Shown: positions 21,006-38,751 of the stretch, one piece after another
How the letters are laid out: each line of letters begins with the position of its first letter
Numbering within the stretch: the first letter of the stretch is position 1
Source: Devosia sp. Leaf420
GTDB taxonomy: Bacteria; Pseudomonadota; Alphaproteobacteria; Rhizobiales; Devosiaceae
Reading direction: 5' to 3'
NCBI RefSeq assembly: GCF_001425445.1
Contig: NZ_LMQU01000011.1
Coordinates: 62,326 to 126,325 of the forward strand
DNA: 64,000 bases
Notes under the pieces: model-generated
Databases searched by the model: none
The model's input: the letters and a program-made list of their open reading frames with translations, nothing else
What the model was told of the DNA's origin: nothing
Made by a program: the position numbers and the translations under genes

Positions 21006-22472
21006 TCAAATTCCTGCAAGGCAAACGTACTTGATTTCAAGGTAGCCCTCGATGCCGTATCTTGAGCCCTCGCGGCCAAGGCCGGATTGCTTGACGCCGC
21101 CGAAGGGGGCCATTTCGTTGGCGAGGGCGCCCGTATTGACCCCGACCATGCCGGCTTCGAGGCCTTCGGCGACGCGCATGATGCGGCCCATATCGCGGGC
21201 GTAGAAATAGGAGGCGAGGCCGAATTCGCTGTCATTGGCCTTGGCGATGACGTCGGCTTCGTCCTTGAAGGTGATGATCGGCGCGAGGGGCGCAAAGGTT
21301 TCTTCCTTGGCGACGAGCATGGACTGGGTGACGTCGGCGATGACGGTCGGCTCGAAGAAGGTGCTGCCGAGCGCACTACGCTTGCCGCCGAGAAGCAAAC
21401 GCCCGCCCTTTTCAAGAGCATCGGCGACGTGTTGCTCGACCTTCTCGACAGCCTTGCCATCAATCAGTGGACCTTGGGTGACGCCGGGCTCGGTGCCGTG
21501 GCCGAGTTGGAGAGCGCGGGCCTTGGCGACGAGTTTTTCGGCGAAGGCCCCGGCGACGCTTTCCTGCACATAGATGCGGTTGGCGCAGACGCAGGTCTGG
21601 CCGGCATTGCGGAACTTTGAAAGCATGGCGCCATCGACCGCAGCATCGAGATCGGCGTCGTCGAAGACGATGAATGGGGCATTGCCGCCGAGTTCGAGCG
21701 ACAGACGCTTGATGCCACCAGCCGCCTCGCGCATCAGCCAGCGGCCGACTTCGGTCGAACCGGTGAAGGTGACTTTCGCGATCTTTGGATTGGTGCAGAA
21801 TTCCTGGCCGAAGGGCTTTGCAGAGCCGGTGACCACGGAGAAGACGCCCGCAGGCACGCCGGCGCGTTCGGCCAGCACGGCGAGGGCGAGGGCCGAGAGC
21901 GGGGTCTGCGAGGCTGGCTTGAGGATCATCGTGCAGCCGGCGGCGAGCGCCGGGCCGGCCTTGCGGGTGATCATGCCGTTCGGGAAATTCCAGGGCGTGA
22001 TGGCAGCACAGACGCCGACCGGTTGCTTGAGCACCAGGATGCGCTGGTTGGGACTGGCGCCAGGAATGATGTCGCCGTCAATGCGCTTGGCCTCTTCGGC
22101 GAACCACTCGATATAGCCGGCATTGCTTATGATCTCGCCCTTGGCCTCGGCCAGCGGCTTGCCCTGTTCGCTGGTGAGGATCAGGGCGAGATCATCGGCA
22201 TTGGCGATGATGAGATCGAACCAGCGCCGCAGGATTTGTGCACGCTCCTTGGCGGTCTTGGCGGCCCAGGCGGGCTGGGCCTCATGCGCGGCATCGATCG
22301 CCTGACGCAGAACATCGACGCCAAGGCTCGGGACGGTGCCGATGACAGCGCCATCGAATGGGTCGGTGACGTCGATCTTGGCGCCATCGGGCGCGGCCAC
22401 CCATTTGCCGCCAACGAGGGCTTTGTCGACGAGGAGCGACTGGTCCTTGAGGGCGAGCGAACGGGTGGTCAT
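21006..22472 (-). CDS. gabD: NAD(P)-dependent succinate-semialdehyde-type aldehyde dehydrogenase
   Basis: Oxidises a semialdehyde, by family most likely succinate semialdehyde to succinate. The 488-residue protein shows a complete ALDH active site: Asn162 (PWNFP), Glu260 (LELGG) and catalytic Cys294 (GQTCVCANR); FTGSTEVGR marks the cofactor site. A second Cys two residues after the nucleophile is typical of the GabD class. ATG 22472 has AGGA seven bases upstream; a TTG two codons earlier is too close to it. It is last in the minus-strand operon, 15 bases after the 3-hydroxyacyl-CoA-dehydrogenase-like gene, so it probably finishes an aldehyde from the island pathway. Confidence 0.88.
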   Translation of the reverse strand: MTTRSLALKDQSLLVDKALVGGKWVAAPDGAKIDVTDPFDGAVIGTVPSLGVDVLRQAIDAAHEAQPAWAAKTAKERAQILRRWFDLIIANADDLALILTSEQGKPLAEAKGEIISNAGYIEWFAEEAKRIDGDIIPGASPNQRILVLKQPVGVCAAITPWNFPNGMITRKAGPALAAGCTMILKPASQTPLSALALAVLAERAGVPAGVFSVVTGSAKPFGQEFCTNPKIAKVTFTGSTEVGRWLMREAAGGIKRLSLELGGNAPFIVFDDADLDAAVDGAMLSKFRNAGQTCVCANRIYVQESVAGAFAEKLVAKARALQLGHGTEPGVTQGPLIDGKAVEKVEQHVADALEKGGRLLLGGKRSALGSTFFEPTVIADVTQSMLVAKEETFAPLAPIITFKDEADVIAKANDSEFGLASYFYARDMGRIMRVAEGLEAGMVGVNTGALANEMAPFGGVKQSGLGREGSRYGIEGYLEIKYVCLAGI

Positions 22473-22487
22473 GATCAAATCCTAAAT

Positions 22488-23417
22488 CTACTGCTTCTGC
22501 TTGAGCTGGCGGAGCGCCAGGATTTGCCGATCGCGCCAGGCCTGGCGATCGGCAATGGAGTCAATCGGTACGCGCTCGGCAAGTTCCGCATGCGCTGATG
22601 CGATCTGCTCCGGCGTCCAATCGTAATCGGTTCGCGCCGCTTCGCCCATGCGGCGCATCATCGGGCCGAGGCGGTCAATGAAGCCCTGAAAACCGTCAGG
22701 GGCATTGAGGTGGGCGACCTCGAAGGGGCCGATGGAGGCCCAGCGGAGCGCGAGGCCAACAGTGAGGACCGCGTCGACATCTTCAGGGGTGCAGTAGCCC
22801 TCGCCAACAAGATGCAGCGCCTCGGCAACGAGGGTGAACTGCAGGCGATTGAGGATGAAGCCGTCGATTTCTTTCTTGAGCACGATCGGCCGCATGCCGG
22901 CTTCGGTCATGAGGGCCCGGGCTTTGGCGACGGTTTCGGGCGCCGTCCATTGCGTGCCGCAGAGTTCGACCAGCGGGATGAGGGATGGTGGATTGACCGG
23001 ATGGACGACGAGGGCGCGTTCGGGATGGGCAAAGTGACCCAGAAAATCCGAGCCGGGGATTGCCGAGGTCGAGGAGGCGAGAATGGCGTCGGCCGGAGCA
23101 TGGGCGGCGATCTCGGCAAAAACCTCCCGCTTGACGGCGACGTCCTCCCGTACGCTTTCCTGGACGAAGACGACATCGGCTACCGCTTCGGCAATCGAGC
23201 TGGCGGCGCTGATGCGGCTGACCACCGTGTCGACGTCTTCTTTGAGAAGCCCGTTCTCCGATAGAAGCTCAAGCGTGCGGCGCGCACCAGGGATGGCGGT
23301 GCGCGCGACTTCGCCGCCTATGGCGTCATAGAGCCTGACATCGTAACCGGCCCGGGCGAAGACCACGGCCCAGGCGCGGCCGACCGTGCCGGCACCGATA
23401 CAGGCGACGGTGCTCAT
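22488..23417 (-). CDS. 3-hydroxyacyl-CoA dehydrogenase-family oxidoreductase
   Basis: NAD-dependent 2-domain dehydrogenase of 309 residues: Rossmann motif GAGTVG at 8-13 and a C-terminal helical dimerisation domain (about 185-300). The order resembles stand-alone 3-hydroxyacyl-CoA dehydrogenases and their L-gulonate or lambda-crystallin-type relatives. Active-site elements SSTSA, HPVNPP and the Asn in FILNRL are present. With no thiolase or hydratase of beta-oxidation nearby, a non-CoA 3-hydroxy acid is a real alternative substrate. Its ATG overlaps the stop of the lyase gene as ATGA. Confidence 0.8.
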   Translation of the reverse strand: MSTVACIGAGTVGRAWAVVFARAGYDVRLYDAIGGEVARTAIPGARRTLELLSENGLLKEDVDTVVSRISAASSIAEAVADVVFVQESVREDVAVKREVFAEIAAHAPADAILASSTSAIPGSDFLGHFAHPERALVVHPVNPPSLIPLVELCGTQWTAPETVAKARALMTEAGMRPIVLKKEIDGFILNRLQFTLVAEALHLVGEGYCTPEDVDAVLTVGLALRWASIGPFEVAHLNAPDGFQGFIDRLGPMMRRMGEAARTDYDWTPEQIASAHAELAERVPIDSIADRQAWRDRQILALRQLKQKQ

Positions 23418-24295
23418 TCGGCAGCCGTCGTGTTGGGGCGGGCCCAGCGACGCTCGAAGTCCCAGACTTCTTCAAACCCAATCAGCGTGTTGAATTCGCC
23501 GAAATTGAATAGTTTTGAGTTCGGCGAATTGGACGTGCCTTCGTTCTTGAGAACCTGCAGCGCGTTTTCGGCAGCGGCGGCGGCGGCAAGGCCGGTGGCC
23601 GAGGGGAAGATCGCGAGCTTATAGCCGATATCGGCGAGTTCGGCCTTGGAGCGGATCGGCGTCTTGCCGCCATCGGCCATATTGGCCATCATCGGCTTAC
23701 TGACACGGGCGCAGGCATCGCGCATTTCCTGTTCGCTTTCAAGCGCTTCGAGGAAGACAATATCGGCACCGGCTTCGCCATAGGCAATGCCGCGCTTGAG
23801 CGCGCCTTCAAAGCCATCGGTCTGGCGGGAGTCGGTGCGGGCAATGATCAGGGTCTCCGGATTGCGACGCGCTTCGACGGCAACCTTGACCTTTTCCACC
23901 ATGTCGATCATCGGCACGACGCGCTTGAACGGCGTGTGGCCGCACTTTTTGGGGAATTCCTGATCTTCGATCTGAATGGCGGTGACGCCGGCCTCTTCAA
24001 AGCCGCGCACGGTGTGGTGCACATTGAGAAGCCCGCCATAGCCGGTATCGGCATCGGCGATGACCGCAGCATTGGCGGTGCGGCAGAGGGTAGCGACGCG
24101 GTCGAGCATCTGGGTGTAGCTGGCAATGCCAGCATCGGGCAAACCATAGGCCGAGGCTGTCATCCAATAGCCCGAGGCATAGACGAAATCGAAGCCGACC
24201 TTATTGCTGACCACGGCGGTGATCATGTCGTGGATACCGGGGGCGACCACAAACTGACCGGAGGCCAGAGCGGCCTTGAGGGAGGGCTTGCTCAT
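23414..24295 (-). CDS. Isocitrate lyase/PEP mutase-family carbon-carbon lyase
   Basis: TIM-barrel enzyme of the ICL/PEPM superfamily, 293 residues. DADTGYG at 81-87 supplies the metal site, and KKCGH at 116-120 is the catalytic loop typical of lyases (isocitrate, 2-methylisocitrate, 2,3-dimethylmalate) rather than phosphonate mutases. It is much shorter than classical isocitrate lyase and matches the methylisocitrate/dimethylmalate lyase size. Next to aconitase-type subunits, cleavage of a substituted malate into a 2-oxo acid plus a carboxylate is the best inference. It overlaps both neighbours by four bases. Confidence 0.83.
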   Translation of the reverse strand: MSKPSLKAALASGQFVVAPGIHDMITAVVSNKVGFDFVYASGYWMTASAYGLPDAGIASYTQMLDRVATLCRTANAAVIADADTGYGGLLNVHHTVRGFEEAGVTAIQIEDQEFPKKCGHTPFKRVVPMIDMVEKVKVAVEARRNPETLIIARTDSRQTDGFEGALKRGIAYGEAGADIVFLEALESEQEMRDACARVSKPMMANMADGGKTPIRSKAELADIGYKLAIFPSATGLAAAAAAENALQVLKNEGTSNSPNSKLFNFGEFNTLIGFEEVWDFERRWARPNTTAAE

Positions 24296-24930
24296 AAATT
24301 TCGTCCTAGATTTCTGAGATATGAAATGGTTTCGGCTTCGGAGACGACGTCGCCATATTTGGCGTCCATGTCGAACAGGTTGGCTTCGTGCGGGGCCGGA
24401 TGACGATCACCCACAGCCTCGCGCACGATGATCGGAATGAAGCCGTGTGAATTGCAGTCGACACAGGTGGCGCGGATGCAGCCACTGGTCGACACGCCGG
24501 TATGAATGAGGGTGTCGACCCCAAGCGAGGTCAGCGTCGAGGCGAGCGAGGTGCCGAAGAAGGCGCTGGCATATTGCTTGGAGATGACGAGCTCATCTTC
24601 GCCCGGCACAAGCCCCTTCGGCCAGGCGCCCATGGGGCTGCCTTCCAGGAAATGATGGAGCGTCATCGACTTCTGATAGAAGCGGCCGCCATTGAGCGCC
24701 GTCTTGTTGTAGACGACGTTGGTATAGATCACCGGCACGCCGACTTCGCGCGCTACGGCCTGGAGGCGTAAACCGCTTTCGAGGGCACTTTCGGTGCCGG
24801 CATAGAGCGAGCAGCTGGGGTCGAAATAGGCCTCGACGAAATCGATCATGATCAGCGCCGGCTTCTTGCCGAAACCGATGCGCTTGCCGAAGGCGCCCTT
24901 ATAATTCTGTGACAGGTCTTGCTCGGTCAT
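24292..24930 (-). CDS. Isochorismatase-family amidohydrolase
   Basis: Cysteine hydrolase of 212 residues with the triad Asp30 (MIDF), Lys118 (ISKQY) and Cys151 (VSTSGCIRAT). The GVSTSGC signature and N-terminal extension resemble N-carbamoylsarcosine amidase and maleamate amidohydrolase more than true isochorismatase. Expected reaction: hydrolysis of an amide or carbamoyl group, releasing ammonia. ATG 24930 overlaps the leuD-like stop (ATGA), which fixes the start; an upstream in-frame extension lies inside leuD. Beside ATP-dependent hydantoinase genes, it probably acts on the ring-opened amide. Confidence 0.85.
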   Translation of the reverse strand: MTEQDLSQNYKGAFGKRIGFGKKPALIMIDFVEAYFDPSCSLYAGTESALESGLRLQAVAREVGVPVIYTNVVYNKTALNGGRFYQKSMTLHHFLEGSPMGAWPKGLVPGEDELVISKQYASAFFGTSLASTLTSLGVDTLIHTGVSTSGCIRATCVDCNSHGFIPIIVREAVGDRHPAPHEANLFDMDAKYGDVVSEAETISYLRNLGRNL

Positions 24931-25577
24931 GCTTTGTCCGTCTGGCTGAAGAGAGAGTCGAGTCGGCCATCGTCGAGGAACAGCCAAGGCTGAGAGGCGC
25001 GATGGCGCTTTTCGAAGGCGGCGATGTCATCGGCATCCTGCGCGAGGATTTCGCCGATCTCGTCGAGACCGAGCATCAGCGCCGCCTTCCGGTATGGATC
25101 GATCTCGAAAGACAGTGAGGGGCCATTGGGAAGGGTGACCGTCTGCCGCTCGAGATCTATCGAGAACGGCTCGCCGCTAGCAGCCGCTGCCAATGCATTG
25201 GCATGGGCCTCGCCAGTGATGACGATGGGAAGAACGCCGTTCTTGAAGCAATTGGAATAGAAGATTTCGCCAAAGCTTGGGGCGATGACGCAGCGAATGC
25301 CGAAATCGGCCAGCGCCCACACAGCCTGTTCGCGGCTCGATCCCGAACCGAAATTGGCATCCGCCACGAGGATCTTGGCCTCGTTGAACAGAGGAACGTT
25401 GAGGACGAAATCCGTGCTCGTGCCGTCCGGCCGGTGCCGACGCTCGTGGAAGAGATGCTTGCCGAGGCCAGCCTTGTCGAGCAGCAGGAGGAAGCGGGCG
25501 GGAAAGATGATATCGGTATCGACATCGGCTTCGGGCAAAGGGGCCGCGACGCTGGTGAGGGTAACGAATTTTTCCAT
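24927..25577 (-). CDS. LeuD-like aconitase-family small subunit (hydro-lyase)
   Basis: Swivelling-domain subunit of 216 residues from the isopropylmalate isomerase family. DVDTDIIFPARF and NFGSGSSREQA are classic LeuD signatures. It would pair with the adjacent large subunit to (de)hydrate an organic acid. Leucine biosynthesis is possible, but the partners here (amidohydrolase, lyase, dehydrogenases) and continuous stop/start overlaps point to a catabolic paralogue such as a maleate, citraconate or dimethylmaleate hydratase. Translation is coupled to leuC through TGATG. Confidence 0.87.
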   Translation of the reverse strand: MEKFVTLTSVAAPLPEADVDTDIIFPARFLLLLDKAGLGKHLFHERRHRPDGTSTDFVLNVPLFNEAKILVADANFGSGSSREQAVWALADFGIRCVIAPSFGEIFYSNCFKNGVLPIVITGEAHANALAAAASGEPFSIDLERQTVTLPNGPSLSFEIDPYRKAALMLGLDEIGEILAQDADDIAAFEKRHRASQPWLFLDDGRLDSLFSQTDKA

Positions 25578-26989
25578 CAGGCTGATTTCCCCAGCGTGCG
25601 CACATCGACGAGATGGCCCGAGATCGCGGCAGCGGCGGCCATGACCGGGCTCATCAGGTGGGTCCGACCACCCTGCCCTTGCCGCCCCTCAAAATTCCGG
25701 TTCGAGGTCGACGCGCACCGCTCGCCGGGCGCGAGGCGGTCATCGTTCATGGCGACGCACATCGAGCAACCTGAATCGCGCCATTCGAAACCGGCATCCT
25801 TGAAGATGCGGTCGAGCCCTTCCGCTTCGGCTTGAATCCGCACGGTGGCGGAACCCGGCACGACAATGCCGGCGACCGTGGACGCCACATGCCGGCCCTC
25901 GACCACCTTAGCGGCAAGACGAAGATCCTCGATGCGGCCATTGGTGCAGGAGCCGATAAAAACGCGATCAATGGCGATTTCGTCGAGCTTCATTCCCGGT
26001 TCGAGCGCCATGTATTTTAGGCTTCGCTCCATCTTGGCGCGACGCACCGGATCGGCCTCGAGCGCTGGATCGGGAATGCGGTCGGAAACGGGCGCCGTTT
26101 CGCCGGGATTTGTGCCCCAGGAGACGTGCGGCACGAGCGCGGAAACATCGAGCTCGACTTCACGATCGAACCTAGCATCGGCATCGCTGCGGAGGCTCAG
26201 CCAGTGCGCTTCAGCTGCGGCCTGCATGTCCGGCGTCGGCGCCAGCTTGCGGCCGCGCACATAGTTGAGTGTCGTCTGGTCTGGCGCGACCATGCCAACG
26301 CGGCTGCCCGCCTCGATCGACATGTTGCACAGTGTCATGCGCGCTTCCATGGAAAGCGTCGCAATTGCCGGCCCGGCATATTCGATGGCGTGGCCGACGC
26401 CGCCATTGGTACCGATCTTGGCGATCAGCGCCAAGATGATATCCTTGACGGCGACACCCGGCTGCAGCGCGCCATTGAGCGTCACGCGCATGGTCTTTTG
26501 TTTCTTCTGCCGCAGGGTCTGCGTTGCGAATACGCATTCACACTCGCTGGCGCCGATGCCGAAGGCAATGGCGCCGAAGGCCCCGTGGGTCGAGGTGTGA
26601 CTATCGCCACAAACCAGCGTCATGCCGGGTAGCGTAAAGCCCAGCTCCGGCCCGATGACATGGACGATACCATGCCGGTTGTCGTTCATGCCAATATAGT
26701 GGACACCGAAGCGCTCGCAGTTGGCTTCAAGCCGCGAAACCTGGCGCGAGGCCAGGCCATCAGGCAGCGGCAGATGGCGCAACCGGGTCGGGACCGCATG
26801 GTCCGCAACGGCGATATGAGCCGCAGGACGCACGAGATTCCGGCCTTCCGCCACAAGGCCAGCAAAGGCCTGCGGGCTCGAAACCTCCTGCACGAGATGT
26901 CGATCGATGTAAAGCAGACTGGTGCCGTCGTCATAGTCCTTGACGACGTGCTGCTGCCAAACCTTGTCATAGAGAGTGAGTGCGCTCAT
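25577..26989 (-). CDS. LeuC-like aconitase-family large subunit (Fe-S hydro-lyase)
   Basis: The 470-residue product carries the 4Fe-4S ligands Cys348 (GSCTNGR), Cys408 and Cys411 (GCSMC) and the [14 protein letters not shown] substrate loop of LeuC. It is the first gene of a six-gene minus-strand operon transcribed away from hyuA. Full-length and intact. By sequence alone it would be called 3-isopropylmalate dehydratase large subunit; by context I favour hydration of an alkylmaleate-type intermediate. No leuA or leuB is in the window. Confidence 0.87.
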
Positions 26990-27120
26990 AGCCCCGCCGA
27001 GACCAGGAAACCCTATTCATGAAGTGTAGTGGTGCAGCCTCTGCAGGCCAGTCCAAGAATCTGGAGAGGCCCGCAATCTTTGCACTTGCGAAGATGTCGA
27101 ACCCCAATCTATGCTGGTGT

Positions 27121-27162
27121 GAATGCGCATGCAATATCCAATTGGATGAGGGTGCATGCGTG
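27121..27162. promoter_or_regulatory. Divergent control region with a candidate LacI-family operator
   Basis: GAATGCGCATGC (27121-27132) is identical to the core of the site upstream of the lacI-type gene in this island. TGCATGCGTG (27153-27162) is a related sequence in inverted orientation. Both lie in the 202-base gap between leuC-like (minus) and hyuA (plus), and so could control both directions. Confidence 0.55.
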
Positions 27163-27191: not shown

Positions 27192-29249
27192 ATGAGATTG
27201 GGCGTAGACGTTGGCGGTACTTTCACCGACCTGCTCCTTCACGATGAGAAAGGCCGGCGAACTTTTCAGGCCAAGACCCCTTCAACGCCCGAAGATCAGT
27301 CGATCGGCGTCGTCGAAGGCGTGAAGCTGATCTGCGAGAAGGCCGGTATTTCGCCCGCCGATATCGACCTGATCCTGCACGGCACAACTGTCGCCACCAA
27401 TGCGGTGCTCGAAGGCAAGGGCTCGCGCGTCGGGCTCCTCGTCACCGAGGGCTTTGAATATACGCTCCATCTCGCCAAGGCCTGGACCCCGGGTCCGCTC
27501 TTTGGCTGGATCAATATGGAAAAGCCTGATCCATTGGCCTCGCTTGCCGATACCCGCGGCATTCCCGAGCGCATGAATGCGCGCGGCGAAGTTGTCCGCG
27601 AACTCGATGTGGCGGCGGCCACCGCGCTCATCGACGATCTCTGCTCCTCGGGCATCGAGGCGCTGACCATCTCGCTGATGCACTCCTATGCCAATGCCGC
27701 CCATGAGCGCCAATTGCGCGATATCGTAGCCCAGCGTTTCCCCGATATCCCGGTCTCGCTTTCGTCGGAAATCCTCCCCGAATTCCGCGAATATGACCGC
27801 GCCATCACCACGGTGATGAACGACTATGTCCGCCCGATCATGAAGCGTTACCTTTCGCGCATCGAAGATCGCCTGGCCGACAATGGCGTCACCGCGCGCC
27901 TTCATATCGTCCGCTCGGATGGCGGTTTGATGAGCGCCGCGGCAGCCTCGGAACGTCCGGTGCATACCGTGCTGTCCGGCCCTGCCGGTGGCGTTACATC
28001 GACCATGATGCTGTCGCGCCGCTCGGGCTTCCCGAAACTGCTCGCCTTCGACATGGGCGGCACGTCGACCGACGTTGCCGTCATCATTGACGGTGAAGCC
28101 ACCATTTCGCGCTCGACCGAAGTCGGCATGTTCCCGGCCAAGGTGCCGACGCTCGACGTGCGCAGCGTTGGCGCGGGCGGCGGTTCGATCGCCGACGTTT
28201 CCGAACTGACCGGCTCGCTCCGCGTCGGCCCACGCAGTGCTGGCGCTCGTCCAGGTCCGGTCTCCTACGGGCGTGGCGGCACGGAACCGGCCGTGAGCGA
28301 CGCCAATGTGGTGCTCGGCTATCTGCCGCCCGTGCTGCTCGGTGGCGAAATGAAGCTCGACGTCGAAGGCGCCCGCAAGGCCGTTGCCAATGTCGGCCAG
28401 CAGATCGGCCTTTCGCCCGAAGACGCGGCCAAGGGCATCATCGATATCGCCAATGAAGTCATGCTCGGCGCGCTCCGCGTCATCACGGTGCAGCGCGGTC
28501 TCGACCCGCGTGAATTCGGCCTCGTCGCTTTTGGCGGCGCCGGCCCGCTTCACGGCAATGCCATGGCCGAACTTTTGGGCTGCTATCCTGTGCTAGTGCC
28601 GCCGAATCCAGGCGTGCTCTGTGCACTCGGCTTCCTCGAAGCTGATTTCCGCAACGAATTCGTGCAGACCTATATCCGCTCGACCGTGGGCCTTGACCCA
28701 GCCGAAGTCTGGAGCCGTTTCGCCGAACTCGAAGCCAAGGCGCAGACTTGGCTGACCGAGCAGGAAGTGACAGAGGCCGATGCCTCGATCACCTATTCAC
28801 TCGATCTTCGCTATGAGCAGCAGGGCTTTGAAGTGGCGGTGCCGGTCAGCGCTGCAGACGTCCATAACAAGGGCGCGCTGACGCAGACGCTCGCTGATTT
28901 CCACGATATCCACGAACGCCTCTATGGCGTGCGCTTCACCGTTCCGGTCGAACTCGTCGCCATGCGCGTCGTTGCCCGCGGCGCCACGGAGCCCGTGGAA
29001 GAGTCCTTCGCCGAAGCCGCCTCGACCGACGTGAAAGCCGCGATCATCGAGACGCGCCCGGGCTATTTCAACGGCGCCTGGCAGGACACGGTCCATTATG
29101 ACCGCAACAGGCTTGGCGTCGGCTCGCGCGTCGAAGGCCCGGCAATCATCCGGCAATATGACACCACGACCGTGCTTCTCCCGGCGCACTATGCCGAGAT
29201 CGATGCGCACGGCAATATCCTGATCTGGCCCGTTTCGAAGGGGAATTGA
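27192..29249 (+). CDS. hyuA: Hydantoinase/oxoprolinase family protein, HyuA-type subunit
   Basis: ATP-binding subunit of an ATP-dependent cyclic-amide hydrolase (N-methylhydantoinase, 5-oxoprolinase or caprolactamase type), or of an acetone-carboxylase-like enzyme. The 685-residue protein opens with the actin-fold phosphate motif GVDVGGTFTD (4-13), then HGTTVATNAVLE, SGPAGGV and DMGGTSTDVA, all hallmarks of this family. The next gene encodes the HyuB partner. Ring opening of a hydantoin, imide or lactam is the family reaction; which ring is unknown. It heads the plus-strand transcript from the divergent promoter. Confidence 0.9.
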   Translation: MRLGVDVGGTFTDLLLHDEKGRRTFQAKTPSTPEDQSIGVVEGVKLICEKAGISPADIDLILHGTTVATNAVLEGKGSRVGLLVTEGFEYTLHLAKAWTPGPLFGWINMEKPDPLASLADTRGIPERMNARGEVVRELDVAAATALIDDLCSSGIEALTISLMHSYANAAHERQLRDIVAQRFPDIPVSLSSEILPEFREYDRAITTVMNDYVRPIMKRYLSRIEDRLADNGVTARLHIVRSDGGLMSAAAASERPVHTVLSGPAGGVTSTMMLSRRSGFPKLLAFDMGGTSTDVAVIIDGEATISRSTEVGMFPAKVPTLDVRSVGAGGGSIADVSELTGSLRVGPRSAGARPGPVSYGRGGTEPAVSDANVVLGYLPPVLLGGEMKLDVEGARKAVANVGQQIGLSPEDAAKGIIDIANEVMLGALRVITVQRGLDPREFGLVAFGGAGPLHGNAMAELLGCYPVLVPPNPGVLCALGFLEADFRNEFVQTYIRSTVGLDPAEVWSRFAELEAKAQTWLTEQEVTEADASITYSLDLRYEQQGFEVAVPVSAADVHNKGALTQTLADFHDIHERLYGVRFTVPVELVAMRVVARGATEPVEESFAEAASTDVKAAIIETRPGYFNGAWQDTVHYDRNRLGVGSRVEGPAIIRQYDTTTVLLPAHYAEIDAHGNILIWPVSKGN

Positions 29250-31052: not shown

Positions 31053-31075
31053 ACGGGGCCGAAAGGCCCCGTTTT
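31053..31075 (+). terminator. Intrinsic terminator after hyuB
   Basis: ACGGGGCC (31053-31060) and GGCCCCGT (31065-31072) pair around a GAAA tetraloop, followed by TTT. It starts five bases after hyuB, and the stop codon of the convergent lacI-type gene lies in its T-tail. Confidence 0.85.
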
Positions 31076-32148
31076 CATCTCTCGTCTTCGTTTTTCGCGG
31101 CATCCGCTTCGCCCCGATAGGCTGGTGGCACGGGGATCGAACTACGCCAGATCAGACGCCCCTTGATCGGCCGGTCAATGCCACGCGGAATTGGCTCGGT
31201 CGGATCGTCGAGATGGAGGATGGACAGGGTTTCATCGACCATCTGCTCGATCGGCTGTCTCACGGTGGTCAGCTGATAGGGCGCGCGGCGGCCTTCGGGG
31301 ATATCGTCGAAGCCGCCGACCATCAGATCTTCCGGCACGCGCAGACCCAGGCGATGGCGCAAAGCATCGATGGCGCCCATGGCCATGATGTCGTTAACCC
31401 CGAACAAAGCGTCGGGGCGCACGCGGCTTTTGTCGCGGATCAGCTTGATCGTCGCGTTGAAGGCCCCCTCATAGGAGGAATGCCCATGCACCTCGACGAT
31501 CTGGGAGCGCTTTACGCCACCATCGAGCAGGCGCTCAACGAAACCGCGCACACGATCGCCACTTGTCGTGCCCTTCAAATCGCCGGTGATCAGTGCAAAA
31601 TTCTGCGCGCCCGCAGCCAAAAAGGCTTCGGCGATCAAGGCGCCGCCCGCGACATTGTCGCAGCGCACGCCGGACGCATCGGAGCCCGGAATGTAGCGAT
31701 TGAACAGCACGATCGGGATGCCGCGATCATGGCAGAGACTGATCATGCGGGTCGAAAGTTGCGCCGCGGTCAAGACCACGCCGTCCACCTGATATTTGAG
31801 GAGATGCATGATTGCCTCGTCGCTTTCCGAATTCGGCTCGACGGTGAAGATCAGCACCTGCCGCCCCTGCGCCTGGAGGCGCCGGCTAAAGGTGTGGAGG
31901 ACGTGGACGTAAAAGGGATTGTCGAGATTGCCGATGATCAGCGCAACGATATTGGTGCGTTTCGTCGTCAGGCTGCTGGCAATGGAGTTCGGGACGTAGT
32001 TAAGCTTGAGCGCAGCTTCGAGCACTTTGGTGCGGGTTTCGTCCGCTATGCGCGAGCCGGGCGTAAAGGCCCGCGAGACCACCGATTGAGAAACGCCGGC
32101 TAAAGCGGCGACATCGAACGAAGTTGACCTGGAGCTTTTCCGCGCCAT
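31075..32148 (-). CDS. LacI-family transcriptional regulator of the catabolic island
   Basis: The 357-residue protein has an N-terminal LacI helix-turn-helix (FDVAALAGVSQSVVSRAF, about 10-27), the hinge, and a periplasmic-binding-protein-like sensor domain (ALIIGNLDNPFY onward to IWRSS). I use ATG 32148, preceded by GGAAAG; an ATG at 32190 falls inside the operator-like palindrome and is unlikely. It sits between hyuAB and the ABC importer and is probably autoregulated. The effector would be the imported substrate or an intermediate. Confidence 0.9.
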   Translation of the reverse strand: MARKSSRSTSFDVAALAGVSQSVVSRAFTPGSRIADETRTKVLEAALKLNYVPNSIASSLTTKRTNIVALIIGNLDNPFYVHVLHTFSRRLQAQGRQVLIFTVEPNSESDEAIMHLLKYQVDGVVLTAAQLSTRMISLCHDRGIPIVLFNRYIPGSDASGVRCDNVAGGALIAEAFLAAGAQNFALITGDLKGTTSGDRVRGFVERLLDGGVKRSQIVEVHGHSSYEGAFNATIKLIRDKSRVRPDALFGVNDIMAMGAIDALRHRLGLRVPEDLMVGGFDDIPEGRRAPYQLTTVRQPIEQMVDETLSILHLDDPTEPIPRGIDRPIKGRLIWRSSIPVPPAYRGEADAAKNEDER

Positions 32149-32176
32149 CAATTTTCTTTCCGGGGGCCTGCCGTCA

Positions 32177-32192
32177 GAATGCGCATGCATTC
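32177..32192. promoter_or_regulatory. Candidate LacI-family operator before the regulator gene
   Basis: GAATGC-GCAT-GCATTC: two perfect inverted hexamers around a four-base spacer, 29 bases upstream of the regulator ATG. The first 12 bases match the site before hyuA exactly. Confidence 0.6.
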
Positions 32193-32352
32193 CTCGCCCT
32201 TCCCCTATCGATAATCCCAGCCGCGCTGGGTTTCAATGTAAACCTGCACGCTTGCTGTGCATCTCGCCTGCAAAAACCGCTCGCCGCTACAAGAATTCTC
32301 GCCAAAGATTTTTAGAACGGGAATTGACTTGGGTAATGAGTTGCGCTCCTAT

Positions 32353-32364
32353 GAATACGCATTC
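32353..32364. promoter_or_regulatory. Candidate LacI-family operator before the ABC importer operon
   Basis: GAATACGCATTC is palindromic except for one pair and shares GAAT-CGCAT-C with the other two sites in the island. It lies about 50 bases before the binding-protein start codon, a suitable position for repression. Confidence 0.55.
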
Positions 32365-32413
32365 ACCGTCATAGCCCGAGGGGGGTTCGATGGCCGGATA
32401 CAGGGAGACTCTC

Positions 32414-33532
32414 ATGAACAAACGCGCGCTGCTCGCGTCGGTTGGCGCCTTGACCATGCTTGTTGGCTTTGCAGGGGCTGCCTCTGCAGACGAGGCGAGC
32501 GACGGCTTGGCTCGGGCCAAGGAAAATATCGCCAAATATACCTCGAAGCCTGAATTCGTTGCCCCGGGTGACGCCTTCGATGCCAAGGCCTGCTCGGCCG
32601 GCAAGAAGATGATGTCGATCCCGAACAATAGCGGCAATCCCTTTCTCAAGGGCATCATCGATCGCATGAAGGCGGCCGGCGCCGAAGTTGGCCTCGAAGT
32701 GCGCGAATGGGAAAACCAGGGCCAGCCGAGCCAGTGGGTCCAGGGCATCGAACTCGCAACGCGCGAAAAATACGACATCATCGACCTGATCTCGGGTATC
32801 GATCCGGGCACCGTCGCCCCGCAGCTCCAGGCTGCCAGCGATGCCGGCGTCAAGGTCATGACCTCGCACTTCTACGACCCAAGCTTCGAACAGCACCCGG
32901 TGGTGTCGAGCTCGCTGACCATCGGCTTCGGTGAAATCGGCACGATCCTCGCTGACTGGTCGACTGTCGCGACCGAAGGCAAGGCAAATGTCGCTCTGGT
33001 CATCTCGACCGACGTGCCGCCGACCATTCCTCTGGTCGAAAACTTCAAGAAGCAGCTCGCCGAGAATTGCCCGAACTGCAAGATCGTCACCGAGATCAAT
33101 GTCGGCGTGACCGAATGGGGCACCAAGATCCAGCCAGCCGTGCAGACTGCCGTCCAGGCCAATCCCGACATCAATGTCGTGATCCCGATCTATGACTCCA
33201 TGAGCCAGTTCGTCGTCCCCGCGCTGCGCCTTGCCGGCAAGACCGGCGAAGTCAAGCTCGCGACCTTCAATGGCACGCCTTTCGTGCTCGACTATATCGC
33301 CCAGGGTCTGGCCGATATGGACATAGGGGAAAGCCTCGACTGGATCGCCTATGCCACGGTCGACGGCCACCTCCGCGACGCCTGCGGCCTTCCGACCCCG
33401 ACCGCGCTCAACGTGCCCTTCTATATCTTCGACAAGAACAACATTGCCGAAGCTGGCACCCCGGCCCAGTTCGATACCGGCTATGGCGATGCCTACAAGT
33501 CTGGCTTCCGCAAGCTCTGGGGCCTCGAATAA
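32414..33532 (+). CDS. Substrate-binding protein of a sugar-type (CUT2) ABC importer
   Basis: Periplasmic receptor of 372 residues. ATG 32414 has AGGGAG seven bases upstream and gives a clean signal peptide ending at GAASA-D (about residue 24). The mature part has the ribose-binding fold pattern: MMSIPNNSGNPFLKG, IIDLISGIDP, and an interdomain crossover near SMSQFV. It carries extra Cys residues (KACSAG, NCPNC) that may form disulfides. Members import sugars, polyols, autoinducers or purine-like compounds; the ligand is unknown but probably the island substrate. Confidence 0.88.
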   Translation: MNKRALLASVGALTMLVGFAGAASADEASDGLARAKENIAKYTSKPEFVAPGDAFDAKACSAGKKMMSIPNNSGNPFLKGIIDRMKAAGAEVGLEVREWENQGQPSQWVQGIELATREKYDIIDLISGIDPGTVAPQLQAASDAGVKVMTSHFYDPSFEQHPVVSSSLTIGFGEIGTILADWSTVATEGKANVALVISTDVPPTIPLVENFKKQLAENCPNCKIVTEINVGVTEWGTKIQPAVQTAVQANPDINVVIPIYDSMSQFVVPALRLAGKTGEVKLATFNGTPFVLDYIAQGLADMDIGESLDWIAYATVDGHLRDACGLPTPTALNVPFYIFDKNNIAEAGTPAQFDTGYGDAYKSGFRKLWGLE

Positions 33533-35163
33533 TGACCGCACTGTCGGATCACGCACTCCCCGATCCGACCAACCATCCGGGGGCGCCTCAGGCGCTCCCG
33601 GTGCTGTCGGTGTCCAATATTTCCAAGACCTTTGGCGGCGCCAAGGCGCTGCAGAACGTTTCGTTCAAGGTCATGCCCGGCGAGGTCCATGGACTTCTCG
33701 GCAAGAATGGTTCCGGCAAATCGACGCTCGTCAAAATCCTCGCTGGCTTCCACGCGCCCGATGAAGGCGGCACGCTGGAATTCAACGGTGAACGCGTGAG
33801 CCTGCCTCTGAAGCCGGGCGATTATCGCCGGCTCGGCATGGCTTTCGTGCATCAAAATCTCGGTCTCATCCCGTCGCTGACGGTGATGGAAAATCTGCGC
33901 CTCGTGCCACTGACCGCGGCCAAGTCCGCCTATATCAATTGGTCTGCTGAAGAACGCGCCACCCGGCAGGCGCTGGCCCGCTTTGGCCTCGATATCGACC
34001 CCAGTGAGCGCGTCGATCGCCTGACTCCGGTGCAGCGCGCTTTGCTCGCCATCGTCCGCGCCTTCGAAGAAATCGAAGCTTCGCGCGCCGTCACCGGCCG
34101 CCCCGGCCTTGTGCTCCTCGACGAACCGACGCCCTTTCTCCCGGCGGCCGGCGTGGCCCAGCTCTTTGATATGGTGCGCTCGATCACCCGCTCTGGCTCG
34201 AGCGTTATCTTCATCTCCCATGACATCGACGAGGTCATGGAAATCACTGATTCAATCACGGTCCTCCGCGACGGCGTCATGGCTGGCGAATTGAAGCGCG
34301 CCGACGCCACGCACGAGACCATCGTCAAGATGATCGTCGGCCGCAGCCTCACCAAGGCTGAGCGGCCCGCCGGTCCCGCCATCAGCCGCCCGGTCTATGC
34401 GCGCATTTCTGGTCTCGCCGGCAAGATGCTGCAGCCTTCCGACATCGATGTGGGCAAGGGCGAAATCCTCGGGCTTACCGGCCTCATCGGTTCGGGCTAT
34501 GCCGAAGTGCCCTATCTCGTCTTTGGCGCACATCCTGCGCGTTCCGGCACGATCGCCATCGAAGGCGGCAACGCGTTCGACCAGAAGACGCTCTCGCCCA
34601 AGGCTGCCATCGACATGGGTTTTGCCCTTTTGCCTGGTGACCGCCAGGGCGCGAGCGGCGTCGATAGTCTGCCCATCGTCGACAACATGTTCCTGCCCGA
34701 TGTCTCCCGCTTTTTCCGCGGCGGGTTCCTGCGCAACGGCGCCATGGTCCGCGAGGCCAAATCGCTGGGCACGACATTTGAAGTGCGCCCCAATGATCCA
34801 GGCCTCAAACTTTCGGCGCTCTCGGGCGGTAATGCCCAAAAGGTGCTGATCGCGCGCTGGATGAACCGCTCGCCCAGCCTCCTGCTTCTCGACGAACCGA
34901 CCCAGGGCGTCGATGTCGGCACCCGCCAGCAGATCTTTGCCGCGCTCCGCGCCGCTGCAGCCAAGGGCATGTCGGTTATCTGCGCCAGCTCGGAGGCCGA
35001 ACAGCTGGCCGAGATCTGCGATCGTGTTCTGGTCTTTTCCAAGGGCAGCATCTGCACCGAAATCTCGGGCGATGCCGTCACCAAGGATGGCATTTCCGAA
35101 GCCTGCTACGCCACAGCCGCGCCCCTTTCCACCCCATCCCAATCTTCGCGGGTTGCATCATGA
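33532..35163 (+). CDS. ATP-binding protein of the CUT2 ABC importer (two fused ATPase domains)
   Basis: RbsA/MglA-type protein of 543 residues. Domain 1 has Walker A GKNGSGKST at 57-65, Walker B LVLLDEP and switch ISHD, but its signature reads LTPVQRALLAI instead of LSxGxxQ. Domain 2 has the usual degenerate P-loop (TGLIGSGYAE) yet an intact signature (LSGGNAQKV) and LLLLDEPTQGVD. Such asymmetry is normal for the family, one composite site being active. The ATG shares one base with the upstream TAA (TAATG). Confidence 0.9.
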   Translation: MTALSDHALPDPTNHPGAPQALPVLSVSNISKTFGGAKALQNVSFKVMPGEVHGLLGKNGSGKSTLVKILAGFHAPDEGGTLEFNGERVSLPLKPGDYRRLGMAFVHQNLGLIPSLTVMENLRLVPLTAAKSAYINWSAEERATRQALARFGLDIDPSERVDRLTPVQRALLAIVRAFEEIEASRAVTGRPGLVLLDEPTPFLPAAGVAQLFDMVRSITRSGSSVIFISHDIDEVMEITDSITVLRDGVMAGELKRADATHETIVKMIVGRSLTKAERPAGPAISRPVYARISGLAGKMLQPSDIDVGKGEILGLTGLIGSGYAEVPYLVFGAHPARSGTIAIEGGNAFDQKTLSPKAAIDMGFALLPGDRQGASGVDSLPIVDNMFLPDVSRFFRGGFLRNGAMVREAKSLGTTFEVRPNDPGLKLSALSGGNAQKVLIARWMNRSPSLLLLDEPTQGVDVGTRQQIFAALRAAAAKGMSVICASSEAEQLAEICDRVLVFSKGSICTEISGDAVTKDGISEACYATAAPLSTPSQSSRVAS

Positions 35164-36158
35164 CCGACGCCCTCTCCACCCCGTCCGCCGCCAAGCCCGC
35201 AGTCAATCTCACGCGCCAGTTCGAGCGCATCGCCTTGCTGCTGGTCTGGGTTGTTATCATCGGCCTCTTCAGCGCCGCGATGCCCTCGGCCTTCTTTAAC
35301 TGGGGCAATTTTTCGATCATGTTCGCCTCCTATGCCCCGGCAGCCTTGCTGGCATTGGCGATCATCATTCCGCTGACGGCAGGCGACTATGACCTCTCCG
35401 TCGGCGCGACGCTGACGCTCTCCGCCTCGACTATCGGCGTCCTCAATGTCTGGCACCAGATGCCGATCGGCCTCGTGCTTTGCATCGTTCTGGCCATGGG
35501 TGTGCTGGTTGGGCTCTTCCACGCGCTCTTCATCATCTATTTCCGCGTGCCCTCGCTGGTCGTCACCCTTGGCTCTACCTCGCTGATGAGTGGCGCCGTG
35601 CAATGGATGACCAACTCCTCGACCATTGGCGGCATCGACAACAACCTGATCATGGCCGCAGTCGGATATCGCCTCTTCTGCATTCCCTACGCTTTCTACT
35701 ACGCTTTGGCCGCCGCGCTGATCATGTGGTACATTTTCGATTACACCCCCCTCGGGCGAAAGCTGCTCTTCGTCGGGCGCGGGCGTGAAGTTGCCCGGCT
35801 CAACGGCATCGCCGTCAATCGCGTGCGCGTCGGCGCCCTGGTCATGTCGGGCGTTCTCGCCTCGGCTGCCGGCATTCTCTATGCAGGCGTGCTGGGTTCG
35901 GCCGATCCCTATTCGGGCCTGAATTTCCTGCTCCCCGCCTTTGCCGCCGCATTCCTCGGCGCCACCACCATCCAGCCGGGACGCTTCAATCCCTGGGGCA
36001 CGCTGGTCGCCGTCTATTTCCTCGCGACCGGCATTACCGGCCTTTCCATGCTCGGCATTCCGCTCTGGGTCACCAATGTCTTCAATGGCGGCGCGCTGAT
36101 CCTGGCAATCACCATCTCCCAAATCACCCGCGGTCGCGAAGCCTCAGACCTCGGCTAA
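35160..36158 (+). CDS. Permease of the CUT2 ABC importer
   Basis: Inner-membrane permease of 332 residues with about eight to ten helices and the RbsC-type hallmark stretches [17 protein letters not shown] and [20 protein letters not shown]. It would homodimerise. The ATG overlaps the ATPase stop by four bases. The next gene follows after 32 bases with its own ribosome-binding site, so transporter and dehydrogenases appear to share one transcript. Confidence 0.9.
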
Positions 36159-36190: not shown

Positions 36191-37498
36191 TTGGCCACCC
36201 ATCTCAAAACTGCCGAGGCCGCCGCCGGGCGTGCCGAGGCGGATAGCAAAGTTCGCTCTACGGTTGAAGGCATTCTGGCCGACATCGAGGCACGTGGCGA
36301 CACCGCTGTGCGCGCACTCTCGGCCAAATTCGATAATTGGTCGCCCGAAAATTTCAGACTCTCAGAGCAGGATATCGAAGCCGCAATGTCGAAGGTTTCG
36401 GCGCGCGACCTCGAAGATATCCGCTTTGCCCAGGCCAATGTCCGTCGCTTTGCCGAACACCAAAAGGCTGCGCTGCAGGACGTCGAGATCGAAACAGAGC
36501 CCGGCGTGACCCTTGGTCACAAGAACATCCCGGTCGATGCCGTGGGCTGCTACGTCCCCGGCGGCAAATACCCCATGGTTGCCTCGGCGCATATGAGCGT
36601 CCTGACGGCCAAGGTGGCCGGCGTCAAGCGCGTCGTCGCTGCCGCGCCCCCATTCAAGGGTGGGGCGCATCCGGCCATCGTCGCCGCCATGCACCTCGCC
36701 GGCGCCGATGAAATCCTCGTTCTCGGCGGCGTGCAGGCCATCGGCGCCATGGCACTTGGCACCGAAACCATTGCGCCAGTCGACATGCTCGTCGGTCCCG
36801 GCAATGCTTTCGTCGCCGAAGCCAAACGCCAGCTTTATGGCCGCGTCGGTATCGACCTTTTTGCCGGCCCAACCGAAACCCTCGTCATCGCCGATGATAC
36901 GGTCGACGCCGAAATCTGCGCCACCGATCTTCTGGGCCAGGCCGAGCACGGCCCGACTTCACCGGCCATTTTGCTCACCACTTCGGAAAAGCTCGCCCGC
37001 GAAACCATGGCCGAGGTGGAGCGCCTGCTTTCAATTCTGCCGACGGCCGAAATCGCTCGGGTTTCGTGGCGCGACCATGGCGAAGTCATCCTCTGCGCCG
37101 ATGACGCGGAAATGCTCGCCGTCGCCAACGAACTTGCCTTCGAGCACGTCCAGGTCATGACCCATGACCCCGATTACTTCCTCGACAACATGACCAATTA
37201 TGGTGCGCTGTTCCTCGGCGCCCGCACCAATGTCGCCTTTGGCGACAAGGTCATCGGCACAAACCACACCCTGCCAACCAAGCGCGCTGGCCGCTTCACC
37301 GGCGGGCTCTGGGTCGGCAAGTTCTTGAAGACTTGCACCTATCAGCGGATCACGACGGACGCCGCAAGCGCCAAGATCGGCGCCTATGGCTCCCGGCTAT
37401 CCATGCTGGAGGGTTTTGCCGGGCACGCCGAACAGGCCAATATCCGCGTACGCCGCTTCGGCGGTCGTAACGTCCCCTATGCCAGCGCCGCCGAGTAA
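36191..37498 (+). CDS. Histidinol-dehydrogenase-family enzyme, HpsN-like (not biosynthetic HisD)
   Basis: Zinc- and NAD-dependent alcohol-to-acid dehydrogenase family, 435 residues. HisD-type zinc and catalytic positions are recognisable: Gln250, His253, Glu318-His319, Asp352 ([13 protein letters not shown]) and His412. The overall sequence reads closer to sulfopropanediol 3-dehydrogenase (HpsN) than to HisD of histidine synthesis, from memory of the family. The start is TTG 36191 with AGGAGG six bases upstream, giving MATHLK. It probably performs a two-step oxidation of a primary alcohol in the pathway fed by the importer. Confidence 0.82.
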
Positions 37499-37504
37499 AC
37501 CAGC

Positions 37505-37609
37505 ATGACCCTGCCCCGATCCCACAGTTTCCGTCTCGACGGCAAACGCGCCCTCGTGACCGGGGCTGGTCGGCGTCTGGGCCTGGCCGTTGGCTGGACC
37601 GCAGAGTAG
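37505..37609 (+). pseudogene. Short-chain dehydrogenase remnant with internal deletion
   Basis: A 34-codon frame encodes MTLPRSHSFRLDGKRALVTG, then AGRRLGLAVGWTAE and a stop. The first part is the standard SDR opening with the cofactor motif TGAGRRLG. The last five residues match common SDR C-termini (VDGGWTAE type). This looks like one gene whose middle (roughly 200 or more codons) was deleted in frame. It sits in operon order between the HisD-type and zinc dehydrogenases, where a full SDR would fit. Confidence 0.7.
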
Positions 37610-37620
37610 AGAAATCCCTC

Positions 37621-38751
37621 ATGAAAATTCGCGCTGCCATTCTCGAGCAATCCGGCCTTTCCGCGCCATACGCGATCTCGAAACCCCTGCGGATCGGGGA
37701 GATTGAACTCAGCGGGCCGGGTCAGGGCGAGGTTCTGGTGAAAGTCATGGCGGCGGGGCTTTGCCACTCCGATCTCTCGGTGATCGACGGCAATCGGCCG
37801 CGGCCTTTGCCGATGGTTTTGGGACACGAAGCGGCGGGGATAATTGAAGCGCTGGGGCCGGGGATAGATGATTTTGCGGTTGGCGATCACGTGGTCTTCG
37901 TTTTCGTGCCGAGCTGCGGGTCGTGTGAATGCTGCTCGGATGGGCACCCTGCCCTTTGCATTCCGGGCGCGGCGGCCAATGGCGCCGGGGTGTTGCTGTC
38001 TGGCGAGCGGCGACTGCATGAGCATGACCACGCGCTCAATCATCATCTCGGCGTCTCGGCCTTCGCCGAATATGCGACGGTGTCGCGGCGTTCGCTGGTC
38101 AAGATCGACAAGTCGCTCCCCTTTGAAGAAGCAGCGCTTTTCGGCTGCGCGGTGCTGACCGGCGTCGGCGCCGTCTTCAATGGGGCCAAGGTCGCGCCGG
38201 GCGATAAGGTCGCCGTGATTGGGCTTGGCGGCGTCGGCATGGCGGCGCTGATGGGCGCCAAGGCGGCGGGAGCCGAGCAGATCGTCGCCGTGGACCTATC
38301 CCGCGAAAAGCTCGATCTGGCGCTCAGCATGGGCGCAACGGACGTGTTCCAGGCCACTGCCGAGGGCGTTGTCGACGTCATCAAGGAAGCGACGCATGGC
38401 GGGGTCGATCATGCCATTGAGCTCGCAGGCTCAGTGGCGGCGCTGCAAACTGGCTATCAAATCGTGCGGCGCGGCGGGCAATTGACGACTGGTGGCCTGC
38501 CGGCACCAACGGCGAGCTTTGCTTTCTCGCCCGTCAATCTTGTGGCTGAAGAAAAAACCATACGCGGCAGCTATTTGGGCTCATGCGTTCCGGCGCGGGA
38601 CATTCCGCGCTTCGTGCGGCTCTATAAGCGCCGCATCCTGCCGGTGAATCGCTTGCTGTCCGAGGTCATGCCGCTCAGCGAGATCAATGCCGGCTTTGAC
38701 AAATTGCGGGAGGGAAGCCTGCTGCGCGGCGTTGTCACCATGGGCCATTAA
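37621..38751 (+). CDS. Zinc-dependent alcohol dehydrogenase (medium-chain family)
   Basis: The 376-residue enzyme has the catalytic zinc ligands Cys48 (GLCHSD) and His69-Glu70 (GHEAAG), and the structural zinc set Cys99, Cys102, Cys105 and Cys113. The Rossmann motif GLGGVG follows, and Asp in VAVDLS suggests NAD preference. It resembles class III-type or aryl-alcohol dehydrogenases. Last gene of the importer operon, 11 bases after the SDR remnant. The ribosome-binding site is weak (AGAGAAAT). Substrate unknown. Confidence 0.88.
   Translation: MKIRAAILEQSGLSAPYAISKPLRIGEIELSGPGQGEVLVKVMAAGLCHSDLSVIDGNRPRPLPMVLGHEAAGIIEALGPGIDDFAVGDHVVFVFVPSCGSCECCSDGHPALCIPGAAANGAGVLLSGERRLHEHDHALNHHLGVSAFAEYATVSRRSLVKIDKSLPFEEAALFGCAVLTGVGAVFNGAKVAPGDKVAVIGLGGVGMAALMGAKAAGAEQIVAVDLSREKLDLALSMGATDVFQATAEGVVDVIKEATHGGVDHAIELAGSVAALQTGYQIVRRGGQLTTGGLPAPTASFAFSPVNLVAEEKTIRGSYLGSCVPARDIPRFVRLYKRRILPVNRLLSEVMPLSEINAGFDKLREGSLLRGVVTMGH

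Follow-up and report, generated by a model that had tools for sequence, protein, structure and literature searches.

In the creatinine route, an N-methylhydantoinase acts before an N-carbamoylsarcosine amidohydrolase, and in nicotinate fermentation an aconitase-like dimethylmaleate hydratase is followed by a 2,3-dimethylmalate lyase of the ICL/PEPM family. A gene cluster of Devosia sp. Leaf420, located in the 64,000-nucleotide stretch of DNA analyzed here (the window, carried by contig C11 of a 4.2-Mb genome), encodes HyuA and an amidase from the same two enzyme families as the first pair, for which we propose the same order of action. It also encodes a LeuCD-like hydro-lyase and an ICL/PEPM-family lyase (ICL), which parallel the second pair, although the ring-opening enzymes differ from those of nicotinate fermentation. 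Unlike its counterpart in the creatinine route, the HyuA-amidase pair is tied to LeuCD and ICL. Aerobic nicotinate breakdown employs the maleamate amidase NicF and the maleate isomerase NicE; the window amidase shares the superfamily of NicF, whereas the naming of the window genes revealed no isomerase of this kind, LeuCD being there instead. We found that the genes of the cluster form one real, conserved, and jointly regulated unit. As for its function, we lean slightly toward scavenging under LacI control, the compound taken up being a small cyclic imide that bears a hydroxyl group, or a cyclic amide much like it; all reactions of this system, and their order, are predicted from the sequences.

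Another relevant system is the fungal nicotinate breakdown by HxnV/HxnW/HxnM/HxnN. In that route, an FAD monooxygenase and an SDR are followed by the cyclic imidase HxnM and then by an amide hydrolase, and HxnM is related by the authors to HpPgdA and to the allantoinase PuuE (PMC9304392). The route proposed here would likewise lead from an imide through a half-amide to a dicarboxylate, and relatives of the window cluster hold FAD monooxygenase, SDR, PuuE-like, and amidase genes. However, the window has an ATP-dependent HyuAB and an isochorismatase-type amidase with onward LeuCD/ICL chemistry, whereas the fungal HxnN is FAAH-like (PMC9304392). No account of a pathway with HyuAB, the amidase, LeuCD, and ICL was found in the open-access literature, subscription papers being largely outside this coverage, which agrees with an earlier sequence-only reading of this DNA, to which no described pathway joining all these enzymes was known. 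The pathway seems to be undescribed, although the enzyme families and reaction types are themselves known. The features of the cluster are as follows.

21006-22478, minus strand: GabD-like aldehyde dehydrogenase, accessory (TIGR01780 SSADH model 708 bits, above the cut-off of 646; PRK11241 766, below the cut-off of 828)
22488-23417, minus strand: 3-hydroxyacyl-CoA-dehydrogenase-like NAD dehydrogenase (HAD-like), lambda-crystallin type (NF004783 361.8 bits, above the cut-off of 347; top solved structure 3ado)
23414-24295, minus strand: ICL/PEPM-family C-C lyase with KKCGH motif (structure matches 4iqd, 1zlp, 3eoo, and 3fa3; under the PrpB cut-off)
24292-24930, minus strand: isochorismatase-superfamily amidase (ISO; structure matches 26st and 1nba, then 3ot4/3uao; start taken as the ATG, the listed open reading frame starting upstream at a TTG, 24987)
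24927-25577, minus strand: LeuD-like small subunit of hydro-lyase (TIGR00171 189.7 bits, above the cut-off of 116; loop PARFLL)
25577-26989, minus strand: LeuC-like large subunit of hydro-lyase (TIGR00170 701 bits, cut-off 560)
27119-27134, plus strand: predicted LacI-type operator in the leuC/hyuA divergent promoter (shared palindrome)
27192-29249, plus strand: HyuA-like subunit of an ATP-dependent cyclic-amide hydrolase (N-methylhydantoinase 7hk5, 497 bits; CapA model 516, cut-off 1000)
29246-31048, plus strand: HyuB-like subunit (CapB model 246 bits, cut-off 1000)
31075-32190, minus strand: LacI-family regulator (profile match; shared operator)
32351-32366, plus strand: predicted LacI-type operator in the lacI/importer divergent promoter (shared palindrome)
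32390-33532, plus strand: CUT2 periplasmic binding protein (its reading-frame cluster in 26 of 93 neighborhoods)
33532-35163, plus strand: CUT2 ATPase (profile match)
35160-36158, plus strand: CUT2 permease (profile match)
36191-37498, plus strand: HisD-like 4-electron alcohol dehydrogenase, accessory (top solved structure HpsN 8v35; Met at the position of HpsN His126)
37621-38751, plus strand: zinc-dependent alcohol dehydrogenase, accessory (profile match; its reading-frame cluster in 8 of 93 neighborhoods)

The sequence-only reading had described six minus-strand genes diverging from hyuA-hyuB, followed by a LacI regulator, a CUT2 importer, and HisD-like and zinc dehydrogenases, and every coordinate of this arrangement was confirmed. 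Its statement that five of the six minus-strand genes overlap by 1-4 bases also agrees with the measured overlaps (HAD/ICL 4, ICL/amidase 4, amidase/LeuD 4, and LeuD/LeuC 1 bases); HyuA and HyuB overlap by 4 bases, and GabD and HAD are separated by 9. The family labels were correct at the superfamily level according to profile and solved-structure searches.

Conservation and joint regulation of the cluster

The cluster was compared with the best 80 of 479 amidase relatives in public genomes, a set skewed to close relatives. The 22 of these named loci whose HyuA is at least 70% identical to that of the window are called window-type here; they were counted by script within flanks of 10 kb, which cut many loci. 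LeuC, LeuD, and the amidase were present in all 22, HyuB, HAD, and LacI in 21 each, and ICL in 20. At least one CUT2 gene occurred in 20, both exceptions being short contigs. GabD was found in two (L068 at 86% and L076 at 38% identity), HisD in six, and the zinc dehydrogenase in one, with many of the loci truncated at 10 kb, and these three look accessory, outside the core. Membership of the catabolic island as proposed from the sequence alone therefore stands for HyuAB, the amidase, LeuCD, and ICL, which behave as one unit, but GabD, HisD, and the zinc dehydrogenase appear to be non-core. A flavin reductase gene at 17903-18469 was rejected as a member of the unit; it matched a single one of the 80 named loci (L076), at 36%.

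When 397 genomes of the order were searched with the amidase, 32 matched at E up to 1e-40, that of the window included; in five genomes (L034-L038), HyuAB, LeuCD, the amidase, ICL, LacI, and CUT2 were grouped, with HAD in four of the five. Because these sets were anchored on the amidase, the search was repeated with HyuA, which matched in 10 of the 397 genomes at E up to 1e-180. In seven, again including the window's own, HyuA was at least 74% identical, and its divergent neighbor was LeuC in six; the seventh (L224) has ICL in that position and an MmgE/PrpD gene nearby, without LeuCD. The other three matches (46-48%) comprise one in which LeuC adjoins HyuA (L223) and two with HyuAB, the amidase, and CUT2 together (L221 and L222). 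The neighborhood comparison across the order suggested with the sequence-only reading thus found the enzyme set to recur with either gene as anchor. Neither the amidase (E up to 1e-40) nor HyuA (E up to 1e-180) gave a match in 11 other Devosia genomes sampled, but three window-type loci (L067, L068, and L072) carry the cluster in Devosia, so this gap reflects patchiness and not a group-wide lack; the closest amidases in the named collection are also from Devosia. The set recurs in other bacterial families and shares one operator, which excludes chance assembly, and the cluster is found across many bacteria from soil and water.

A palindrome close to TTGAATRCGYATTCAA is common to the leuC/hyuA and lacI/importer divergent promoters. 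With up to two mismatches, it was present in 45 of 50 promoter regions, compared with 24 of 2000 stretches drawn at random from the same loci; the consensus was drawn from the same regions that were counted, and the 50 regions hold duplicates (35 of 40 when only distinct regions are considered). Sites were assigned to loci by coordinate, and we regard a genome-wide scan as the cleaner test. Scanned in this way with up to one mismatch, six of 12 genomes had exactly two sites, both in the cluster promoters, and one further genome had a single site, inside the cluster, while a reversed control pattern gave no sites in all 12. In the window's own genome, up to two mismatches yielded five sites (control, 2). 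Two of these are the cluster sites, two are on contig C16, where one lies upstream of a second HisD-SDR-LacI module and the other adjoins a third HisD, and the fifth is within a kinase-like gene. This part of C16 (L152, 2357-16409) forms a further catabolic region; besides the second HisD-SDR-LacI module with the same operator and the third HisD, it contains an ABC importer and Amidase-family, cupin, MetE-like, and RraA-like genes. Rhizobium alvei has an off-cluster site upstream of the gene for an iron-type alcohol dehydrogenase that is 60% identical to one in the cluster region of L085.

The regulation bears on a rival explanation, in which the importer, the HisD-like enzyme, the dehydrogenases, LeuCD, and ICL would degrade a branched hydroxy acid of the polyol or sugar-acid kind, HyuAB and the amidase serving only to release that acid from a lactam. 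The CUT2 importer and the LacI regulator suit such a substrate, as do the operator before the iron-type dehydrogenase in R. alvei and the second HisD-SDR-LacI module with the same operator beside an Amidase-family gene in the own genome. However, HyuAB, the amidase, and LeuCD are the constant members of the cluster, whereas HisD and the zinc dehydrogenase are variable, and we consider this explanation unlikely.

Enzyme assignments

LeuC and LeuD both pass the leucine-biosynthesis models (TIGR00170 and TIGR00171), and the cysteines of the SCTNGR and GCSMC motifs of LeuC are present, as read by eye. The sequence-only reading would have been undermined if this pair were the only leucine-biosynthetic copy in the genome; this was checked and excluded, as a separate leuC (59% identical) and leuD (53%) are located on contig C10. 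A LeuD match was obtained in all 26 genomes in a search of relatives, and 27 of 28 non-cluster LeuD proteins from these relatives contain a loop reading PKQ, then Y, F, or H, and then LKTI. The loop of the window LeuD reads PARFLLLL in place of the housekeeping PKQYLKT, and PARFLL was found in all 22 window-type loci and in 43 of 55 cluster-associated LeuD proteins overall. We take this loop to face the substrate side chain and to set specificity. Because of the separate leuC/leuD and the distinct loop of the small subunit, the cluster LeuCD is, judging from its sequence, most likely a hydro-lyase with a substrate other than the leucine intermediate, and the possibility of a leucine-isomerase duplicate was rejected. 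An assembly of unrelated ordinary genes, with a spare leucine isomerase beside unconnected hydrolases, would be in keeping with the family models, which by themselves name the pair LeuC/LeuD. We consider it extremely improbable, as the clustering is conserved, the operator is mostly confined to the cluster, and the LeuD loop is distinct.

The amidase had no NCBIfam match at E up to 1e-10. Its residues Asp30, Lys118, and Cys151, which we take to be the catalytic triad of the isochorismatase superfamily, are invariant across 11 aligned sequences and place it among the amidases of this superfamily. HyuA and HyuB scored far below the curated NCBIfam cut-offs for the caprolactamase CapAB (516 and 246 bits, respectively, versus 1000 for both) and are not assigned to it. 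The top structures for the ICL/PEPM lyase were 4iqd and the petal death protein 1zlp, followed by methylisocitrate lyase 3eoo and 2,3-dimethylmalate lyase 3fa3. The KKCGH active-site motif and the near full-length match to lyases place it in the superfamily, but with 261 bits against a TIGR02317 cut-off of 354 it is not assigned to the PrpB 2-methylisocitrate lyases. An argument on its specificity from residues near 'IFPSAT' was dropped because the residue numbering was not secure. The HAD-like protein had lambda-crystallin 3ado as its best solved match.

The closest solved structure to the HisD-like protein is HpsN (8v35, 400.9 bits), the sulfopropanediol 3-dehydrogenase for which His126 is diagnostic (PMC11382572). 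The window protein has Met at this position, and all 16 aligned sequences have either Met or Leu; two of the 16 (L034 and L075) are the same contig. As the diagnostic His126 is replaced, the HisD-like enzyme is, on its sequence, not an HpsN. Sulfopropanediol (DHPS) breakdown, a candidate prompted by the presence of HisD and a zinc dehydrogenase, was rejected because the residue is missing.

The proposed imide route and its rivals

In the route that we propose, the CUT2 importer would take up the cyclic imide, and HyuAB would open the ring with ATP to give a half-amide. The isochorismatase-like amidase would then remove the remaining nitrogen as ammonia, leaving a nitrogen-free dicarboxylate of the alkylmaleate or alkylmalate type. 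Next, the LeuCD-like iron-sulfur enzyme may add water or move a hydroxyl, after which the ICL/PEPM enzyme would cleave the product in a retro-Claisen reaction to a 2-oxo acid and a carboxylate. Oxidation of an alcohol group, on the side chain or on one of the products, would fall to the HAD-like enzyme, possibly helped, depending on the genome, by accessory enzymes (GabD and the iron-type, HisD-like/SDR, and zinc dehydrogenases).

The neighborhoods of 93 amidase relatives were analyzed for these steps, L034, L036, and L038 being omitted as the same contigs, judged by their length, as L075, L084, and L092. Open reading frames from a simple picker were clustered by single linkage, which merged LeuC and LeuD, and were named from one or two representatives each. 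Forty-seven clusters occurred in at least four neighborhoods, and 43 of these were profile-scanned through a representative (clusters 16, 32, 40, and 42 were omitted); cluster 43 had no Pfam match. The amidase was found in all 93 neighborhoods, ICL-type genes in 57, LeuC/LeuD in 54, HyuA in 51, HyuB in 46, CoA-transferase III and HMG-CoA-lyase-like genes in 23 each, and FAD monooxygenase in 18. GabD and SDR were present in 13 each, HisD in 11, the zinc and iron-type dehydrogenases in 8 each, and PuuE-like, RutA, and Asp/Glu/hydantoin-racemase-like genes in 9 each. AMDase/EutA-like genes stand beside the amidase in 17 neighborhoods, and those of a second cluster in 7. One FAD monooxygenase representative was nearest to PnpA and next to HspB, the 6-hydroxy-3-succinoylpyridine monooxygenase.

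No aminotransferase and no named creatinine- or sarcosine-degrading family was found among the 43 recurrent clusters scanned, and for the latter families no whole-genome search was made. Two reasons lead us to favor an imide: its two hydrolyses would yield a dicarboxylate free of nitrogen, and no aminotransferase was seen among those clusters. The gene replacements in relatives fit, as far as sequence can tell, the order of ring opening, deamidation, hydration or dehydration, and C-C cleavage, and, judging from these replacements, the amidase appears to be a node that takes half-amides from differing ring-opening enzymes and passes the product to dicarboxylate chemistry. The route put forward in the sequence-only reading, from an imide or hydantoin through a half-amide and an (alkyl)maleate to an alkylmalate and a 2-oxo acid, is partly strengthened, the enzymes being one unit and the replacements fitting its order, while its reactions and its substrate, be it an imide or a hydantoin, are predictions. 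In sphingomonad loci (L095, L099, L105, L107, L110, and others), a TonB receptor, the amidase, HyuAB, CoA-transferase III, an HMG-CoA-lyase-like gene, and a hydantoin-racemase-like gene make up another recurrent cluster, and the five named loci have no LeuCD or ICL in the stretch covered. L081 and L104, which probably share one arrangement, have the amidase and ICL next to what is probably a hut operon (urocanase, histidase-family, and amidohydrolase genes).

A hydantoin is the alternative suggested by the solved structures, the nearest relatives being the N-methylhydantoinase 7hk5 for HyuA (497 bits) and the N-carbamoylsarcosine amidohydrolases 26st (151 bits) and 1nba for the amidase. In that case, an N-carbamoyl acid would arise when HyuAB opens a hydantoin that is 5-substituted or N-methylated; the amidase would decarbamoylate this acid, and LeuCD and ICL would process the carbon skeleton. 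The hydantoin-racemase-like cluster and the allantoinase-family PuuE-like cluster, each in 9 of the 93 neighborhoods, also suit this explanation. However, a carbamoyl acid normally leaves an amine, and neither an aminotransferase nor a named sarcosine or creatinine family was among the clusters scanned. To our knowledge, creatinine breakdown involves neither LeuCD nor ICL, and the AMDase-like and HspB-like FAD monooxygenase neighbors suit maleamate chemistry better, a link that we draw from general knowledge. We regard a hydantoin as possible but doubtful.

It could also be considered that the ring resembles uracil and bears a side chain with a carboxyl group. HyuAB would open it in the window and RutA in relatives, and the amidase would act like RutB. 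The RutA cluster, whose L042 representative (13202-14281) scored 628.9 bits against a curated cut-off of 498.3, was found in L042, L043, L044, L077, L078, L087, L109, L127, and L128, and in L077 and L078 it stands beside the window-type enzyme set. However, these two loci still keep HyuAB, no RutA match was obtained among the 18 window proteins scanned with profiles, and the match of the amidase to the RutB structure 8bkd is weak (35.8 bits, against 151 for 26st). A pyrimidine route thus has a low probability.

Several observations weigh against the cyclic imide route. As described above, the nearest solved structures of both HyuA and the amidase indicate a hydantoin equally well, and RutA in 9 of the 93 neighborhoods could signal a pyrimidine-like ring. 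A plain alkylmaleimide does not account for a sugar-type importer or for the HisD-like, SDR, and zinc dehydrogenases, and ICL is missing beside the cluster in two window-type loci (L088 and L094). In the 12-genome operator scan, two genomes had one site, outside the cluster only, and three had none with up to one mismatch. The PuuE-like representative had 1z7a and the allantoinase PuuE (129.5 bits) as its closest matches, resembled HpPgdA weakly (32.8 bits), and fell below the allantoinase cut-off (156.5 versus 424.6); its likeness to HxnM is presumed, by way of HpPgdA and PuuE. In a wider class sample of 29 HyuA loci (43-55% identical, the window's own excluded), the amidase (32-34% identical) lay within 1.5 kb in three and LeuC beside none, and the linkage to the amidase and LeuC is therefore specific to this HyuA subgroup. 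The presence of HyuAB alone does not imply the proposed route.

An alkylmaleimide as the substrate of the imide route is a guess. Riboflavin/thiamine, pantothenate, and C-nucleosides such as showdomycin were considered as well, and in our estimation are neither supported nor excluded. A bolder proposal, which we rate as improbable, is a widespread undescribed bacterial pathway for hydroxyalkyl-substituted maleimides and succinimides, for example monopyrrole imides from chlorophyll or haem. ATP-driven imide opening would here feed an aconitase-type isomerase and an alkylmalate lyase, with swappable modules for ring opening (HyuAB, PuuE-like, or RutA) and C-C cleavage (ICL or CoA-transferase with HMG-CoA-lyase-like) meeting at one half-amide node in Alpha- and Gammaproteobacteria. 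If the imide route is true, genes labeled leucine biosynthesis, hydantoinase, and histidinol dehydrogenase would belong to one pathway, HyuAB would gain a new physiological role, and LeuCD and ICL/PEPM enzymes would be seen to cooperate in a way new to their families. The nitrogen and carbon of ring imides would be returned to soil and water food webs, and the fate of maleimide-type breakdown products would become testable. The binding protein, together with the two-site regulon in several species, offers a handle for identifying the substrate.

Genomic setting

The cluster lies between two tRNA genes (ARAGORN), which form the edges of the inserted segment.

20750-20826, minus strand: tRNA-Met, left edge
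38878-38953, plus strand: tRNA-Phe, right edge

The G+C content is 60-64% in the cluster, 58-60% in the left flank, and 58-63% in the right flank. This setting fits a horizontal gain of the cluster at a tRNA site, and the label of an island given in the sequence-only reading is fair, though no integrase was found among the listed open reading frames of the window. Immediately right of tRNA-Phe (38990-41670) are a UdgX-type uracil-DNA-binding gene and a radical-SAM partner. UdgX was found in 17 of 30 other Devosia genomes, and tRNA-Met is directly 3' of its gene in 14 of these 17 loci; the remaining loci are that of genome G305, with tRNA-Phe and tRNA-Pro, and two without a tRNA in the stretch covered. 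In G305, the nearest relative by UdgX (L244/L261), tRNA-Phe, tRNA-Pro, and a distant LacI-like gene occupy the equivalent spot, which suggests a recurrent insertion site. Farther away in the window, genes resembling a cellulose synthase (bcs) operon (44-7696) and flagellar-type genes for hook-length control, FliF, FliG, and FlhA (50455-62673) were recognized by eye.

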